From the NCBI GenBank assembly GCA_001595385.3, contig LVEI03000001.1, positions 2,075,501-2,139,500 on the forward strand: a DNA stretch of 64,000 bases, written 5' to 3'. The position numbers and the translations under genes are program-made. Below, piece by piece: positions 6,120-40,667 of the stretch. The stretch is from Deltaproteobacteria bacterium GWC2_55_46. Lineage in GTDB: Bacteria; Desulfobacterota; GWC2-55-46. The notes under the pieces are model-generated. The model searched no databases, was not told the origin of the DNA, and saw only the letters and a list, made by a program, of their open reading frames with translations. Every line of letters starts with the position of its first letter. The first letter of the stretch is position 1.

Positions 6120-6413
6120 TACCTAATGTTCTCCTTTTTATTGCCTTTCTGGAAAGGCTTTTGAGAAAAACTTGTTATAGCCCATAGCTGGAGGGTGTTC
6201 TGTGACTTTAAAGGTAACATCATTATGGGCCGTAGTCAATCACATCCGGCCTGAAAGGCTCTCTTGAAATGGGCATGCAACGGCTGTCGCTCCGGGGAAA
6301 AAGCAGGGGGTCCGCCGGCGCGCTCAGCCGGTGACTCTTCAAAAAAAAAATTGCGTTGGGCGCGCGATTAAAATAGAATGTCCCGAGGGGCAGAAGGCCC
6401 CGTTGGTGTAAAA

Positions 6414-6788
6414 ATGTCCAAGCTCGTCCTCATAGCCGCGGCAGGCGCCGCCGGCACCCTTGCCAGGTACTTTCTTGGCGGCCTTGTCCAGAGGCTCTAC
6501 GGAGGCGCCTTCCCCTGGGGCACCTTCGCCGTGAACATGACCGGCACATTTCTTTTCGGGGTCGTCTGGGCGCTTGCCGAAGAGAGGCTCGTGATAAGCG
6601 GCGAGGCGAGGGCGATCGTCCTCGTAGGCTTCATGGGCGCCTTCACCACATTCTCGACCTTCATCTTCGAGACCGGCGAGCTCTTAAGGGACTCCCAATG
6701 GGCGCTTGCCATCGGCAACCTCGCCATTCAGAACATAACGGGCGTTATATTCCTTATCCTGGGCCTTGCCATCGGCAGGCTCCTATGA
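6414..6788 (+). CDS. crcB: Fluoride channel CrcB/FluC
   Basis: This 124-residue protein has four hydrophobic segments and the signature GAFTTFSTFIFETGEL of Fluc channels, with NMTGTFLFG earlier. It exports fluoride as a dual-topology dimer. The ATG at 6414 gives the usual start (MSKLVLIAAAGAAGTLARYF). An in-frame alternative begins 36 bases further upstream. The DUF190 gene starts 10 bases after its stop, so the two form an operon. The upstream region contains a small GC hairpin near 6317-6333, but nothing matching the fluoride riboswitch core. Confidence 0.93.
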   Translation: MSKLVLIAAAGAAGTLARYFLGGLVQRLYGGAFPWGTFAVNMTGTFLFGVVWALAEERLVISGEARAIVLVGFMGAFTTFSTFIFETGELLRDSQWALAIGNLAIQNITGVIFLILGLAIGRLL

Positions 6789-6798
6789 AGGAGGATAT

Positions 6799-7140
6799 AT
6801 GCAACTGCCGGAAGACGCGGAACTGCTGAGGGTCTTTATCGGGGAGAGCGACAAGTTCGAAGGCCGCCCGCTTTACCAGGCCATAGTAGAGGAGGCGCGG
6901 CGCCTGGGGCTCGCTGGCGCTACGGTCACAAGGGGGCTCATGGGCTTCGGAGTCCACAGCAGGCTCCACACCGTCAAGGTCCTTAGGCTCTCCGAAGACC
7001 TCCCGATAGTGGTAGAAATAGTCGACAAGCCAGGGCGTATAGAGTCCTTCCTGCCAACACTCGACGGAATGGTCGGCGACGGGCTCATAACGCTCGAAAA
7101 GATAAAGGTGATAGCTTACAGGGGCAGGAAAGAGTCCTAA
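6799..7140 (+). CDS. DUF190 family protein
   Basis: This 113-residue protein begins MQLPEDAELLRVFIGESDKF and contains ATVTRGLMGFGVHS and LPIVVEIVDKPGRIESFLP, the characteristic blocks of DUF190. The fold is related to PII-like ferredoxin domains. DUF190 genes are often found next to crcB, and that is the case here, so a role in sensing or modulating fluoride export is plausible but unproven. The ATG at 6799 is preceded by AAGGAGG at six bases. An in-frame start further upstream would overlap crcB without a ribosome binding site. Confidence 0.9.
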   Translation: MQLPEDAELLRVFIGESDKFEGRPLYQAIVEEARRLGLAGATVTRGLMGFGVHSRLHTVKVLRLSEDLPIVVEIVDKPGRIESFLPTLDGMVGDGLITLEKIKVIAYRGRKES

Positions 7141-7216: not shown

Positions 7217-7270
7217 TTGACAGGCACAATATGTTGTGGTTTACTAACGCTCATACACAATATGGGCGAT
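7217..7270 (+). promoter_or_regulatory. nrdJ promoter with tandem NrdR boxes
   Basis: A -35 element TTGACA (7217-7222) and a -10 element TTTACT (7240-7245, four of six matches) are separated by 17 bases. The spacer contains the palindrome gCACAATATGTTGTGg (7224-7239), which fits the NrdR box consensus acaCwATATwTwGtgt. A second, half-conserved box aCACAATATgggcgat lies at 7255-7270. The two boxes start exactly 31 bases apart, the three-turn spacing typical of NrdR box pairs. NrdR bound there would block RNA polymerase, so nrdJ is probably repressed when dATP/ATP-loaded NrdR is active. No nrdR gene is in the window. Confidence 0.75.
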
Positions 7271-7375
7271 TACTCAGGTAAATCAACGACTTATTAAATC
7301 TGTGGGATCTACCCCTGCCTCCCCGGGCAGGGACCTTCCGCAACACTCAATAACAACACGCCTCAGGGGGTAAAA

Positions 7376-9739
7376 ATGGACCAGGACGTCTACAGCCGTT
7401 TGCTTGGCGCCGAATCAGCCGCAAAGGAAAAGAAAAAAAGCGATGCCCCGGTGGCACGTATAGAAGTTAATGACAACGGGCGCAGGGTCCTTGAGAAAAG
7501 ATATCTCAAGCGGGATGCCGACGGCAAACCCCTTGAGACGGTCGAGGAGATGTTCTGGCGCGTGGCCACGAATATCGCCCAGGGCGACAAAAAATTCGAC
7601 CCTGACGCGGACGTGCAGGCAACCGCGTCAGAGTTCTACAAGATGATGGCCTCCCTCGAGTTCATGCCTAACTCCCCGACCCTCATGAACGCCGGCAGGG
7701 ACCTCCAGCAGCTCTCCGCCTGCTTCGTCCTCCCGGTCGAGGACTCGATGGAGTCGATATTCGAGGCTGTGAAGAACACGGCGCTCATCCATAAGTCCGG
7801 CGGCGGCACCGGGTTTTCGTTCTCAAGGCTCAGGCCCTCAGGCGATTCCGTCGGCTCCACCTCCGGGATATCCTCCGGCCCCATCTCATTCATGACCGTA
7901 TTCGACAGCGCCACAGAGGCGATAAAGCAGGGCGGCACGAGAAGGGGCGCCAATATGGGCATCCTCCGCGTTGACCACCCGGACGTAATGAGCTTCATAA
8001 CCTGCAAGGAGGACAACTCCAAGCTCAACAACTTCAACATCTCCGTCAACATCACCGAGGATTTCATGAAGGCGGTCGAGGCCGACGGCGAGTACTCCCT
8101 CATAAACCCCAAGGACGGTAAGCCTTGCGGCTCTCTCAAGGCCAGAGAGGTCTTCGATATGATAGTCAAGATGGCATGGAAGAACGGAGACCCGGGCATA
8201 ATATTCATAGACAAGATGAACGAGAACAACCCCACCCCCCGCGTGGGACAGATAGAGTCCACGAACCCCTGCGGCGAGCAGCCGCTCCTTCCTTACGAGT
8301 CCTGCAACCTGGGCTCGATAAACTTGAGCCGCATGGTAGACCAGGGCGGCTCCGCGATAGACTGGGCGAGGCTCGATGAGACCGTAAGGAAGTCCGTACA
8401 CTTCCTCGACAACGTCATCGAGATGAACAGGTACCCCATCGAGCAGATAGAGAAGGTCACCAAGTCCAACAGGAAGATAGGCCTCGGCGTCATGGGCTTC
8501 GCAGACCTCCTCATACGCCTCGGCATACCGTACAACTCGGATGAGGCCATAGCGCTCGCCGAAGATGTCATGTCTTTCATACAGGACAAGGGCAGGCAGG
8601 CGTCACGCGAGCTTGCGGAGGAAAGGGGAGGCTTCCCCAACTTCAAGGGCTCCATATTCGACGGCAAGGGCAAGCCCGTGAGGAACGCAACCGTCACCAC
8701 TATCGCCCCAACAGGCACCATCTCCATAATCTCCGGCTGCTCTTCAGGCATAGAGCCGCTCTTCGCGCTGGCCTTTACCAGGAACGTAATGGAAGGGACC
8801 GAGCTACTTGAGGTAAACCCGCTCTTCGAGGAGTTTGCCAGGGACAGGGGCTTCGACAGCCCGGAGATAATGAGGGAGGTCGCCAAAAAGGGCACGCTCC
8901 ATGACGTCGACGGCATACCTGACGACGTAAAGAGCGTCTTCGTGACGGCACACGACATCACCCCCGAGTGGCACATAAAGATGCAGTCCGTCTTCCAGAA
9001 GTACACGGACAACGCCGTCTCCAAGACCGTGAACTTCCCCAACGAGGCGACGGTAGAGGACGTGGCATCCGTCTACATCATGGCCTACAAGCTCGGTTGC
9101 AAGGGCGTCACCGTTTACAGGGACGGCTCAAGGGACGTGCAGGTCCTCACCAAGGGGAGCGAGAAGGAAGTGAAGGCCCCTCAGACAGCCCCGGTCGAGG
9201 CCCATGCGATAGCCGAGTACGCGCCCGCCAGGCCAAAGGCCAGGGGCGAGGTCGCCTTCGGCATAACCAAGAAGATGTTGACAGGCTGCGGTAACCTCTA
9301 TATCACCATCAACGAGGACGAAGAGGGCAGGCCCTTCGAGATATTCACCCAGATAGGCAAGGCCGGCGGGTGCGTTGCCTCCCAGTGCGAGGCGATGGGC
9401 AGGATGACATCGCTGGCCTTGAGAAGCGGCGTGGAGGCGCATGAGATAGTAAAGCAGATGCGCGGCATAAGCTGCCACCTGCCGGTAGGCTTCGGCCCCG
9501 GAAAGGTCAGCTCCTGCGCCGACGCGATGGCCCAGGCCATGGACTGGTACCTCGGCTACAAGAGACAGAGCGGCAGCGTTACCGTCGCGGACATGGACGC
9601 GGTCAACAGCCTGCCAAAGAGCTTTACCCTGGGCCACGAGGTCCTGAAACGCGGCGCGTGCCCTGACTGCGGCAGCGCGGTAGAACACTCAGACGGCTGC
9701 CTCGTCTGCAGGGGCTGCGGCTACAGCGAGTGCGGCTGA
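7376..9739 (+). CDS. nrdJ: Adenosylcobalamin-dependent (class II) ribonucleotide reductase, long form
   Basis: This 787-residue enzyme reduces ribonucleotides to deoxyribonucleotides. The catalytic barrel holds C116 (LSACFVLP) and C310 (YESCNLGSINL), the redox pair. N297, C299 (thiyl radical) and E301 lie in NPCGEQP. The loop TTIAPTGTISIISGCSSGIE is also present. After the barrel (about 590) comes a linker, a TSCPD domain (about 630-735, GCGNLYITINEDEEG and ISCHLPVGFG) and a C-terminal Cys-rich ribbon (CPDCG...CLVCRGCGYSEC) that probably passes electrons to the active site. No ATP-cone is visible at the N-terminus. The ribosome binding site is AGGGGG four bases before ATG. Confidence 0.96.
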   Translation: MDQDVYSRLLGAESAAKEKKKSDAPVARIEVNDNGRRVLEKRYLKRDADGKPLETVEEMFWRVATNIAQGDKKFDPDADVQATASEFYKMMASLEFMPNSPTLMNAGRDLQQLSACFVLPVEDSMESIFEAVKNTALIHKSGGGTGFSFSRLRPSGDSVGSTSGISSGPISFMTVFDSATEAIKQGGTRRGANMGILRVDHPDVMSFITCKEDNSKLNNFNISVNITEDFMKAVEADGEYSLINPKDGKPCGSLKAREVFDMIVKMAWKNGDPGIIFIDKMNENNPTPRVGQIESTNPCGEQPLLPYESCNLGSINLSRMVDQGGSAIDWARLDETVRKSVHFLDNVIEMNRYPIEQIEKVTKSNRKIGLGVMGFADLLIRLGIPYNSDEAIALAEDVMSFIQDKGRQASRELAEERGGFPNFKGSIFDGKGKPVRNATVTTIAPTGTISIISGCSSGIEPLFALAFTRNVMEGTELLEVNPLFEEFARDRGFDSPEIMREVAKKGTLHDVDGIPDDVKSVFVTAHDITPEWHIKMQSVFQKYTDNAVSKTVNFPNEATVEDVASVYIMAYKLGCKGVTVYRDGSRDVQVLTKGSEKEVKAPQTAPVEAHAIAEYAPARPKARGEVAFGITKKMLTGCGNLYITINEDEEGRPFEIFTQIGKAGGCVASQCEAMGRMTSLALRSGVEAHEIVKQMRGISCHLPVGFGPGKVSSCADAMAQAMDWYLGYKRQSGSVTVADMDAVNSLPKSFTLGHEVLKRGACPDCGSAVEHSDGCLVCRGCGYSECG

Positions 9740-9758
9740 TTCAGCGTTGATTCGGGAA

Positions 9759-9794
9759 TTTAGAGAACCTTTTTTGTAAAAAAGGTTCTCTAAA
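9759..9794 (+). terminator. Perfect 17-bp hairpin after nrdJ
   Basis: The arms 9759-9775 and 9778-9794 are perfectly complementary with a two-base GT loop. They contain AGAACC followed by six T, and six A followed by GGTTCT. The structure lies 20 bases after the nrdJ stop. The T-run sits inside the stem rather than after it, so it may act as a transcript-end stabiliser or bidirectional terminator rather than a textbook intrinsic terminator. Confidence 0.6.
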
Positions 9795-9817
9795 ACTCTC
9801 CAAAAAACCTTCAGTTC

Positions 9818-9862
9818 TTCCCGTCGGGCCCCCCAGGAACTTTGGGAGGGGCCCGACGGGAA
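9818..9862. repeat. Large GC-rich hairpin, second of three in the nrdJ 3' region
   Basis: The 15-bp arms TTCCCGTCGGGCCCC (9818-9832) and its exact complement (9848-9862) enclose a 15-base loop that can pair partly as well. No T-run follows. It directly abuts the dispersed repeat at 9862-9917, so it may be part of the same composite intergenic element. Confidence 0.5.
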
Positions 9863-9917
9863 CCAAAAGTCTTTGAAGGGGGTCTGGGGGAACCTTTCTA
9901 TAGAAAGGTTCCCCCAG
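9862..9917 (+). repeat. Dispersed intergenic repeat, copy 1
   Basis: The core AAAAGTCTTTGAAGGGGG (from 9865) is followed by TCTGGGGG and a perfect 34-base palindrome (9884-9917) centred on CTATAG. A diverged copy lies at 15718-15768 in the same orientation. Both copies sit just after genes, in noncoding DNA. I know similar elements from intergenic regions of deltaproteobacterial genomes, but no family name can be assigned from the sequence alone. Confidence 0.7.
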
Positions 9918-15111: not shown

Positions 15112-15711
15112 ATGGACGATTTGACATTATATGCTCTAATACCAGTAGCCTATCTCCTTGGCTCGATACCTACCGGCGTCATCATGGCCAGGGCCTTTGG
15201 CAAGGTCGACCCGAGGACCGTGGGGAGCGGGAACATCGGCGCGACTAATGTCGGACGCACCTCAGGAAAGCTCGCGGGAGCGCTTACCCTCACCGGAGAC
15301 ATATTGAAAGGCGCCCTGCCTGTGCTTGCGGCGATACTCCTTGGCGGCGGCAGCGCCCTTGCAAGCCTCACAGGGCTCGCGGCATTCCTCGGCCATCTCT
15401 TCCCGGTCTTCCTTGGCTTCAGGGGCGGAAAAGGTGTTGCCACGGCCTGCGGCGTTCTTGCCGTCGTAAGCCCAGCAGCGACGGTCCTTGGCGCGATAGT
15501 CTTCATACTCGTCGCCGCCATCAAAAGGTACGTCTCCCTCGCCTCTATCACATCAGCGGCCATGATGCCGGTCTTCCTCTCCTTCCTCTATAATGGCAAG
15601 GAGTACGTCCCGCTCGGGGTCGCCATAGCCGTCCTCATAATAATCAAGCACAAGGAGAATATCAAAAGGCTCGCCGCAGGGACAGAGAACAGGATAGGCG
15701 GCGGGAAGTAG
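15112..15711 (+). CDS. plsY: Acyl-phosphate:glycerol-3-phosphate acyltransferase PlsY
   Basis: PlsY makes lysophosphatidic acid from acyl phosphate and glycerol-3-phosphate at the inner membrane. The 199-residue protein shows the three family motifs: LLGSIPTG near the N-terminus, GSGNIGATNVGR, and HLFPVFLGFRGGKGVAT. The C-terminal membrane helices end IIIKHKENIKRL. The ATG at 15112 lies ten bases after GGAGG. Another ATG at 15103 and a TTG at 15091 are in frame, but one is too close to the ribosome binding site and the other lies before it. Confidence 0.95.
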   Translation: MDDLTLYALIPVAYLLGSIPTGVIMARAFGKVDPRTVGSGNIGATNVGRTSGKLAGALTLTGDILKGALPVLAAILLGGGSALASLTGLAAFLGHLFPVFLGFRGGKGVATACGVLAVVSPAATVLGAIVFILVAAIKRYVSLASITSAAMMPVFLSFLYNGKEYVPLGVAIAVLIIIKHKENIKRLAAGTENRIGGGK

Positions 15712-15717
15712 GGAAAT

Positions 15718-15768
15718 AAAAGTCTTTGAAGGGGGTCTGGGGTAAACCTTTCTACAGAAAGTTTCCTC
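15718..15768 (+). repeat. Dispersed intergenic repeat, copy 2
   Basis: AAAAGTCTTTGAAGGGGG is identical to copy 1 at 9865. The palindromic half that follows is diverged (AAACCTTTCTACAGAAAG) and the right arm carries changes that weaken the hairpin. It lies between plsY and the convergent NYN-domain gene, where it could serve as a shared transcript end. Confidence 0.7.
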
Positions 15769-38259: not shown

Positions 38260-38820
38260 ATGCTTCATCGCACAAATGCGCGCGGAGTTCTCCTTAAAAG
38301 CGCCTTCCTTATACTTGTCATCCTCGGAGCCTCGCTCTACGGCTGCCGGAAAGAAGAGAAAAAAGAGGCTGCGGTCTCCGCCGCTCAAGTTACCCCCGCC
38401 CAGGCCATCCCCTTTAAGTTCACCGCCTTCGATGGAAGAGAGGTCTCATTGCAGGGGCTTCGCGGCTCTCTCGTGGTACTTAACTTCTTCGCGAGTTGGT
38501 GCGGCCCATGTAAGATAGAAGCCCCGGAGATCGAGGCCGCCTGGAAAGACCTTGGCGGCAGCGGAGTCCGGTTCGTCGGTATAGCCGTAGACGATACAGA
38601 GGCCGCGGCGAGGGAGTTCGTCAGAAAGTTCGGCCTTACTTTCCCCACAGGCATTGACGCCACCGGCCAGATTGCCGATGATTACAAGATAAGCTTCATA
38701 CCCGTCACCTACTTCATTGGAAGAGACGGAACGGTTTTGCGCGTGCACTCAGGCATGGTGACCCGTGATATCATCTCATCCACCATCGCCGAGCTTGATT
38801 CCGCGGCGGCGTCCCGCTGA
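38260..38820 (+). CDS. TlpA/ResA-like thioredoxin-fold lipoprotein
   Basis: This 186-residue protein has a membrane/lipoprotein signal ending SLYGC. The AhpC/TSA-type thioredoxin domain contains LVVLNFFASWCGPCKIEAPE (active site WCGPC), IAVDDTEAAAREFVRKF and IPVTYFIGRDGTVL with the cis-Pro. It probably reduces disulfides in the periplasm, for instance in cytochrome c maturation or for redox-sensitive envelope proteins. It lies between trxA and the short ribonucleotide reductase, but acts on the other side of the membrane. Confidence 0.9.
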   Translation: MLHRTNARGVLLKSAFLILVILGASLYGCRKEEKKEAAVSAAQVTPAQAIPFKFTAFDGREVSLQGLRGSLVVLNFFASWCGPCKIEAPEIEAAWKDLGGSGVRFVGIAVDDTEAAAREFVRKFGLTFPTGIDATGQIADDYKISFIPVTYFIGRDGTVLRVHSGMVTRDIISSTIAELDSAAASR

Positions 38821-38936: not shown

Positions 38937-40667
38937 ATGGCAGTGAGGCTTTCGCCAGGCGCCCTTACCGTTCTGGAGAGGCGGTACCTTAAAAAGGACG
39001 AATCCGGCCGTGTCATCGAGACCCCTGAGGATATGTTCAGGAGGGTAGCCTCGAATATCGCCAAGGCAGAGCCGCTCTTCGGAAACAATGGCGATGAAGG
39101 GGGCTACGAAGAGGCCTTCTGCTCCCTCATCTCCGCGCTTGAGTTCCTCCCTAACTCCCCGACCCTCATGAACGCCGGAAGGAGGCTTCAGCAGCTCGCG
39201 GCCTGCTTTGTCCTGCCTGTCGGAGATTCGCTCGAATCGATATTCGATGCCGTAAAGGATACCGCCATCATACACCAGTCGGGAGGAGGGACCGGTTTTT
39301 CCTTCTCGAGGCTCCGGCCGGCGGACGACCTGGTAAGCTCCACCGGAGGCCTTGCCAGCGGGCCGGTATCCTTCATGCGGGTATTTAACGCGACCACAGA
39401 GGCGATAAAGCAGGGAGGTACCCGAAGGGGCGCGAACATGGGCATCCTCAAGGTGGACCACCCGGACATAATGCAGTTCATAACCGTCAAGGAAGACCCT
39501 GCCGAGTTCACCAACTTTAACCTCTCTGTGGCGGTGACGGACGCGTTCATGAAGGCGCTCGAAGAGGGCGCAGAGTACGAGCTTGTGAACCCGAGGACCG
39601 GCAGGCCGGCCGGAAAGGTCGGCGCTGATGAAGTCTTCGGGCGCATAGCCGAATGCGCGTGGAAGAGCGGGGAGCCGGGGGTCCTTTTCATAGACCGTAT
39701 AGAGAGCGCCAACCCGACGCCGCATATCGGCCGGTTCGAGGCGACAAACCCGTGCGGCGAGCAGCCGCTACTGAGTTACGAGCCTTGCAACCTGGGGTCG
39801 ATAAACCTTGGCAGGATGGTAAGGGAGTTCGGCGGCAGGTGGGTGCTCGATTGGGAAAAGCTCGCCGCGACCGTATCCCTTGCGGTGCGCTTCCTCGATA
39901 ACGTCATCGAGATGAGCAGGTACCCGACGGCCGAGATAGACGCGATGGCGAAGGCAAACAGGAAGATAGGCCTGGGCGTCATGGGATTCGCCGACCTCCT
40001 TGTGCGCCTGCGCATCCGGTACGGAAGCGAGGAGAGCTTCGCTCTGGCCGAAGAGGTGATGAGGTACATAAGCGCGAGGGCATGGGGGGCCTCACGCGCC
40101 CTTGCCAGGGAGCGTGGCCCCTTCCCTAATATAAAGGGGAGCGTCTTCGACAAGGCGGGGGTGGAGCCGGTCAGGAACGCCACCGTCACCACTATCGCGC
40201 CGACCGGCACTTTAAGCATCATCGCCGGATGCTCTTCGGGCATAGAGCCCTTCTTTTCGCTGAGCTACATAAGGCAGGTGCTCAATGGGGTGAGGATACC
40301 GGAGGTAAACCCGCTTGTGGCAGAGGTCGCGATGGAAGAGGGCTTCTACAACGAAAGCCTCATAGAGCATGTCTCGAACGGGGGCGATATAAAGGAGAGG
40401 GACGAGGTGCCGGAGCGCGTAAAGGAGATATTCGTCACCGCTTACGAGATCCCCACGGTGGACCATATAAGGATGCAGGCGGCCTTCCAGAAGCATACCG
40501 ACAACGCCGTCTCCAAGACCATAAACCTGCCGCCTGAAGCGACGGTCGCCGACGTGCGGGAGGCATATCTTGCCGCGTGGAGGCTCGGCTGCAAGGGTGT
40601 GACCGTTTATAGATCAGGGACAAGGGCCGAGCAGGTGCTCACATGCAAAAGCCCTCTGTACTGCTGA
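38937..40667 (+). CDS. Class II ribonucleotide reductase, short form
   Basis: The 576-residue protein aligns with the barrel of NrdJ at 7376 along its whole length. It has C90 (LAACFVLP), N271-C273-E275 in NPCGEQP, C284 (YEPCNLGSINL) and the TTIAPTGTLSIIAGCSSGIE loop, so the catalytic set is complete. It stops where the long form continues into its TSCPD domain. Instead it ends TCKSPLYC, a CX5C pair that could act as the C-terminal redox shuttle. It thus looks functional rather than truncated. The ATG follows GGAG at about six bases. No clear NrdR box precedes it. Confidence 0.92.
   Translation: MAVRLSPGALTVLERRYLKKDESGRVIETPEDMFRRVASNIAKAEPLFGNNGDEGGYEEAFCSLISALEFLPNSPTLMNAGRRLQQLAACFVLPVGDSLESIFDAVKDTAIIHQSGGGTGFSFSRLRPADDLVSSTGGLASGPVSFMRVFNATTEAIKQGGTRRGANMGILKVDHPDIMQFITVKEDPAEFTNFNLSVAVTDAFMKALEEGAEYELVNPRTGRPAGKVGADEVFGRIAECAWKSGEPGVLFIDRIESANPTPHIGRFEATNPCGEQPLLSYEPCNLGSINLGRMVREFGGRWVLDWEKLAATVSLAVRFLDNVIEMSRYPTAEIDAMAKANRKIGLGVMGFADLLVRLRIRYGSEESFALAEEVMRYISARAWGASRALARERGPFPNIKGSVFDKAGVEPVRNATVTTIAPTGTLSIIAGCSSGIEPFFSLSYIRQVLNGVRIPEVNPLVAEVAMEEGFYNESLIEHVSNGGDIKERDEVPERVKEIFVTAYEIPTVDHIRMQAAFQKHTDNAVSKTINLPPEATVADVREAYLAAWRLGCKGVTVYRSGTRAEQVLTCKSPLYC

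Follow-up and report, generated by a model that had tools for sequence, protein, structure and literature searches.

Results

The nrdJ gene and its promoter

The window (the whole stretch of DNA analysed here, 64,000 nucleotides) contains two genes for class II ribonucleotide reductases (RNRs). The longer one, nrdJ, is preceded by a promoter with two putative NrdR boxes and a further conserved element. The features are as follows, all on the + strand.

7217..7222, +, -35 hexamer of nrdJ, TTGACA, from the sequence; identical in 28/28 relatives
7223-7239, +, -35/-10 spacer of 17 bp, GGCACAATATGTTGTGG, from direct sequence reading
7224..7239, +, putative NrdR box 1, GCACAATATGTTGTGG, occupying the -35/-10 spacer; the TGG at its right end doubles as the TGn of an extended -10
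7225-7238, +, inner palindrome of box 1, CACAATATGTTGTG, from direct sequence reading
7240..7245, +, -10 hexamer of nrdJ, TTTACT; TCTAAT etc. in relatives
7255..7270, +, putative NrdR box 2, ACACAATATGGGCGAT, 31 bp past box 1
7280..7293, +, conserved element in the nrdJ 5' region, AAATCAACGACTTA, ~10 bp past box 2
7376..9739, +, nrdJ, class II adenosylcobalamin-dependent RNR, 787 aa, with PF02867, PF00317 and TSCPD domains
38937..40667, +, second, shorter class II RNR gene, 576 aa, without the TSCPD domain, 3' of a thioredoxin-like gene (38260-38820)

The product of nrdJ matched NF006417 with 1234.9 bits, in agreement with an earlier note on this DNA that had taken the gene downstream of the boxes to encode the B12-dependent enzyme. 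A domain search of the NrdJ protein found no ATP-cone. Rfam searches of the nrdJ 5' region, in the window and in 20 relatives, returned neither a B12 riboswitch nor another known RNA, and this region folded no better than its shuffles. Directly 5' of nrdJ lie a crcB-like fluoride channel gene and then a DUF190 gene (6378-7140). Directly 3' of it is a strong inverted repeat (9756-9798), probably a terminator hairpin, with weak Rfam matches on both strands below the gathering threshold. An intergenic repeat of 40 nt occurs in two copies that are 88% identical (9858-9897 and 15711-15750).

We then read the promoter itself. Box 1 lies between TTGACA (7217-7222) and TTTACT (7240-7245), just where the earlier note had placed a palindrome in a 17-base spacer, and the weaker copy it had reported 31 bases further on was found as well: box 2, whose core CACAATATG begins at 7256, is offset by 31 bp from the first copy. 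Box 1 is a full match to the core of the 16-bp NrdR box, CwAtATaTwG. Box 2 is one-sided and matches in the left half only, its left half CACAATAT being good and its right half degenerate. The gap between the two 16-mers (7224-7239 and 7255-7270) is 15 bp, which gives the spacing of about three helical turns. Box-to-box gaps of 15-16 bp are the rule for NrdR in most bacteria (PMC12051234), and the likeness to known NrdR tandem sites that had been claimed for this pair is thus borne out. An RNR gene therefore carries here both boxes expected of an NrdR-regulated RNR promoter, and the boxes overlap that promoter. Box 2 sits around the predicted transcription start of nrdJ. The -10 hexamer, TTTACT, is weak, having no A at position 2, and a generic promoter scan did not call it.

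The nrdJ box is unique in the genome and the pair is conserved among relatives

To judge how specific the nrdJ site is, we searched the window and the 2.79-Mb genome. The inner palindrome CACAATATGTTGTG has one exact occurrence in the window; it matches its own reverse strand with 2 mismatches and is therefore an imperfect palindrome. The spaced pair ACAATATG-N22-24-ACAATATG occurs once in the window against 0.00 expected from shuffles. Allowing at most 1 mismatch, ACAATATGTTGTG is found at the nrdJ site alone in the genome. The genome-wide NrdR motif scan suggested in the earlier note returned nrdJ as the only site with at most 2 mismatches to the 16-mer consensus. Sites with 3 mismatches occurred at background frequency, which makes one box by itself poor evidence; the case for an nrdJ operator rests on the box pair and its conservation.

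Conservation was followed in the nrdJ genes and upstream DNA of relatives, the named ones being uncultured MAGs labelled Deltaproteobacteria; counts cover the 28 loci with sufficient upstream sequence. TTGACA was invariant, and an NrdR box lay between the -35 and the -10, in all 28. Box 1 was GCACAATATRTTGTGG or a close variant in the same place, followed by TTTACT, TCTAAT, TTATAT or a similar -10, and box 1 stood ~130 to 610 bp ahead of where the protein match begins. Box 2 was offset by 31-32 bp in nearly all relatives, with the consensus ACAATATA on the left and gRCgAT on the right. In most relatives the right half lacks the G usually retained in NrdR boxes. This counts against an NrdR operator at nrdJ: in Streptomyces coelicolor, swapping the conserved GC pairs of the boxes strongly weakened binding (PMC9110341). 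In the same scan, nrdJ in many other phyla also had box pairs at 30-32 bp, which indicates that the tandem arrangement at nrdJ is general. Past box 2, the AAATC/AATCA motif (AAATCAA...TTA) of the element at 7280-7293 recurred in 22/28 relatives with hardly any shift in position.

The second RNR, ~60% identical to the first, is present in many relatives. Upstream of it we found no NrdR boxes in the window (gene at 38937-40667) or at 20 related loci. It would therefore escape NrdR and is a candidate NrdR-independent RNR.

We also observed tandem NrdR-like pairs upstream of genes that resemble anti-phage defence genes; such pairs are few, and part of them could be coincidental. Among these genes are an AAA_21/AriA-like ATPase, DNA methyltransferases and genes of the metallo-beta-lactamase fold that weakly match LmuA/RTasMBL, and several of the pairs resemble the nrdJ site in that one box lies between the -35 and the -10. 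The loci are:

G000:C1:1029899-1029940, tandem pair at a defence-like gene
G001:C3:12120-12159, tandem pair at a defence-like gene
G014:C5:74549-74590, tandem pair at a defence-like gene
G031:C110:3067-3109, tandem pair at a defence-like gene
G018:C114:323-368, tandem pair at a defence-like gene
G006:C36:6235-6280, tandem pair at a defence-like gene
G051:C59:9257-9298, tandem pair at a defence-like gene

The genome encodes a single NrdR

Absence of an nrdR gene had been named in the earlier note as fatal to its proposal. We located one:

C1:2345523-2345963, nrdR, single copy in the genome; TIGR00244, 204.7 bits (cut-off 124.65)

The protein has a Zn ribbon and an ATP-cone, the sole ATP-cone match found in the genome, and almost all of it aligns with solved NrdR structures (1e-46). 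It retains C3/C6/C31/C34 as well as D15, R17 and R26-29, the residues reported as DNA contacts in S. coelicolor NrdR (PMC9110341). Thus, an NrdR with Zn ribbon, ATP-cone and contact residues is encoded in the genome. The gene adjoins riboflavin genes and is unlinked to nrdJ. No boxes were found upstream of nrdR (0/21 loci), in agreement with the studied Proteobacteria, where NrdR has never been found to be autoregulated (PMC5343134).

Among the relatives, 51/59 had nrdR. The eight without a match speak against an NrdR operator; they are mostly incomplete MAGs, yet they include one genome (G048) that is listed as 100% complete and nevertheless has the nrdJ boxes.

A second tandem site lies upstream of smc

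The genome consensus scan also gave a tandem pair directly upstream of smc:

C1:1311497-1311544, tandem pair with boxes at C1:1311497 and 1311529, 32 bp apart; adjoining smc identified by TIGR02168, 1098 bits

We allowed the spacing to vary freely between 24 and 41 and observed that the best pair stood at 31 or 32 bp in 27/29 smc upstream regions from relatives of the family and order. Downstream of the pair lies a conserved TTTACA-N17-TACGAT-like promoter, and in most cases the boxes end 6-8 bp upstream of TTTACA. The pair was present in 10/15 further genomes at the order or class level. In other classes of the phylum, 29/63 smc upstream regions had a pair at 31/32 bp above 15 bits, as scored with a single-box weight matrix whose weights we chose by hand after the published consensus and whose bit scores are relative. 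Outside the class, TTTAC/TTGAC usually lay 6-8 bp downstream. Not every genome of the class or of the phylum has the pair. Overall, smc has conserved tandem boxes of the NrdR type at 31-32 bp.

A model trained on the nrdJ and smc pairs (R1) returned exactly two sites in the genome at E<=1, smc (2.5e-8) and nrdJ (8.4e-8), a result that is circular for those two sites. We therefore built a model trained only on nrdJ pairs from other phyla (R2). R2 recovered nrdJ in the majority of genomes; by our count it detected the smc site in 18/38, with no other non-RNR gene recurring in more than two genomes. In this genome it placed the smc site at E 0.89, behind the site at C1:1029899 (0.036). When upstream regions of long ORFs were scored (n=113), five exceeded 15 of the relative bits, namely nrdJ, smc and three loci that the models had selected; the next stood at 10. 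The free-spacing test and R2 depend less on the hand-set matrix. Weak matches at flagellar genes were judged to be chance or another promoter type.

Discussion

Taking the explanation as a whole, we consider it very likely that 7217-7270 is the NrdR operator of nrdJ and that NrdR most likely acts at smc too. In studied systems, an NrdR tetramer loaded with dATP/ATP occupies the two boxes and introduces a bend in the DNA (PMC9110341). By analogy with these NrdRs, binding, nucleotide dependence and repression at nrdJ are highly likely, in line with the nucleotide-controlled repression that the earlier note had predicted. When dATP is plentiful, NrdR carrying dATP and ATP would bind the two nrdJ boxes as a tetramer, and the bound protein would block RNA polymerase and repress nrdJ; as dATP is drawn down in replication, nrdJ would be expressed. 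Because box 1 lies between the -35 and the -10 and overlaps the TGn, exclusion of RNA polymerase by bound NrdR would be the simplest mechanism. Repression by NrdR would also be the chief overall route by which dATP feeds back on dNTP synthesis, since the only ATP-cone found in the genome is in NrdR and there is none in NrdJ. At the tandem pair 5' of the smc promoter, bound NrdR would allow condensin to be expressed together with dNTP synthesis.

That the nrdJ repeats reflect a chance likeness, or mere AT-rich promoter sequence that no regulator recognises, is scarcely credible: single boxes with 3 mismatches are indeed as frequent as background in the genome, but the exact pair is unique in the window, where none is expected, and it holds fixed positions in 28 relatives despite differing flanks. 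The identity of the protein at smc invites more doubt. NrdR might act at nrdJ only, with the smc pair serving as the operator of an unrelated regulator that uses similar tandem palindromes at the same spacing. In the family and order of the window the smc boxes deviate, with CCCC at the left end of box 1 and TTTSTA in box 2, and the independent model gave this genome's smc site only 0.89. Against an unrelated regulator, the conserved C and G at both ends of the box core are retained, the spacing of 31/32 is that of NrdR, near-consensus boxes such as CCACTATATATAGTGG and ACACAATATATTGCGT occur at smc in relatives of the class and phylum, and the model built from nrdJ pairs alone recovers smc again and again and other non-RNR genes in two genomes at most. 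We regard the unrelated regulator as improbable, and on the sequence evidence NrdR is probably the protein that acts at the smc pair.

The direction of control can be weighed in the same way. NrdR might bind but activate, at least at smc, as has been proposed for topA in Pseudomonas aeruginosa. The idea arises because the smc pair sits upstream of the -35, both boxes ending short of TTTACA in most cases, and topA was reported as NrdR-activated (PMC4409342). On the other hand, Streptococcus pneumoniae nrdHEF also has both boxes upstream of the -35 and is an RNR operon of the kind that NrdR represses (PMC12051234), the topA case involves a single box and has been questioned (PMC12051234), and box 1 at nrdJ lies within the core promoter. 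Activation therefore seems to us unlikely, though a reading to be taken seriously, and we lean towards repression by NrdR at smc.

NrdR has been described as an RNR-specific repressor, and the non-RNR target met in the literature that we searched is topA, which is disputed. Nothing in the papers searched describes control of smc by NrdR. With a widely conserved operator of the NrdR type, smc would join topA as a non-RNR target and would offer a directly testable link between nucleotide pools and chromosome organisation. We think there is a good chance that NrdR in this phylum is a regulator of replication state that senses dATP and sets both RNR and the condensin SMC through tandem operators, and not a repressor of RNR only. 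If so, dNTP supply would be linked to chromosome organisation through NrdR.

Comparison with known NrdR systems

Relative to known NrdR operators, the novelty would be the smc site and not the nrdJ operator, which is ordinary in type but unusually clean, its spacer-filling box geometry being fixed through an order. The closest parallel to the nrdJ site is nrdRJ of S. coelicolor, where a class II RNR promoter likewise carries two boxes and NrdR has identical Zn-ribbon contact residues (PMC9110341); here, in contrast, nrdR is unlinked to nrdJ and boxless (0/21), and box 2 has a single good half. The nrdDG and proximal nrdAB operators of Listeria monocytogenes similarly consist of a pair, with a 16-bp spacer, over the RNA polymerase site (PMC12051234). 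The RNR classes differ, however, and in our case box 1 exactly fills the -35/-10 spacer, an arrangement conserved through an order. For smc, the nearest comparison is topA of P. aeruginosa, also a DNA-metabolism gene outside the RNR family that has been assigned to NrdR (PMC4409342). Whereas topA has a single box and was reported as activated, smc has a tandem pair with canonical spacing that is found widely in the phylum.
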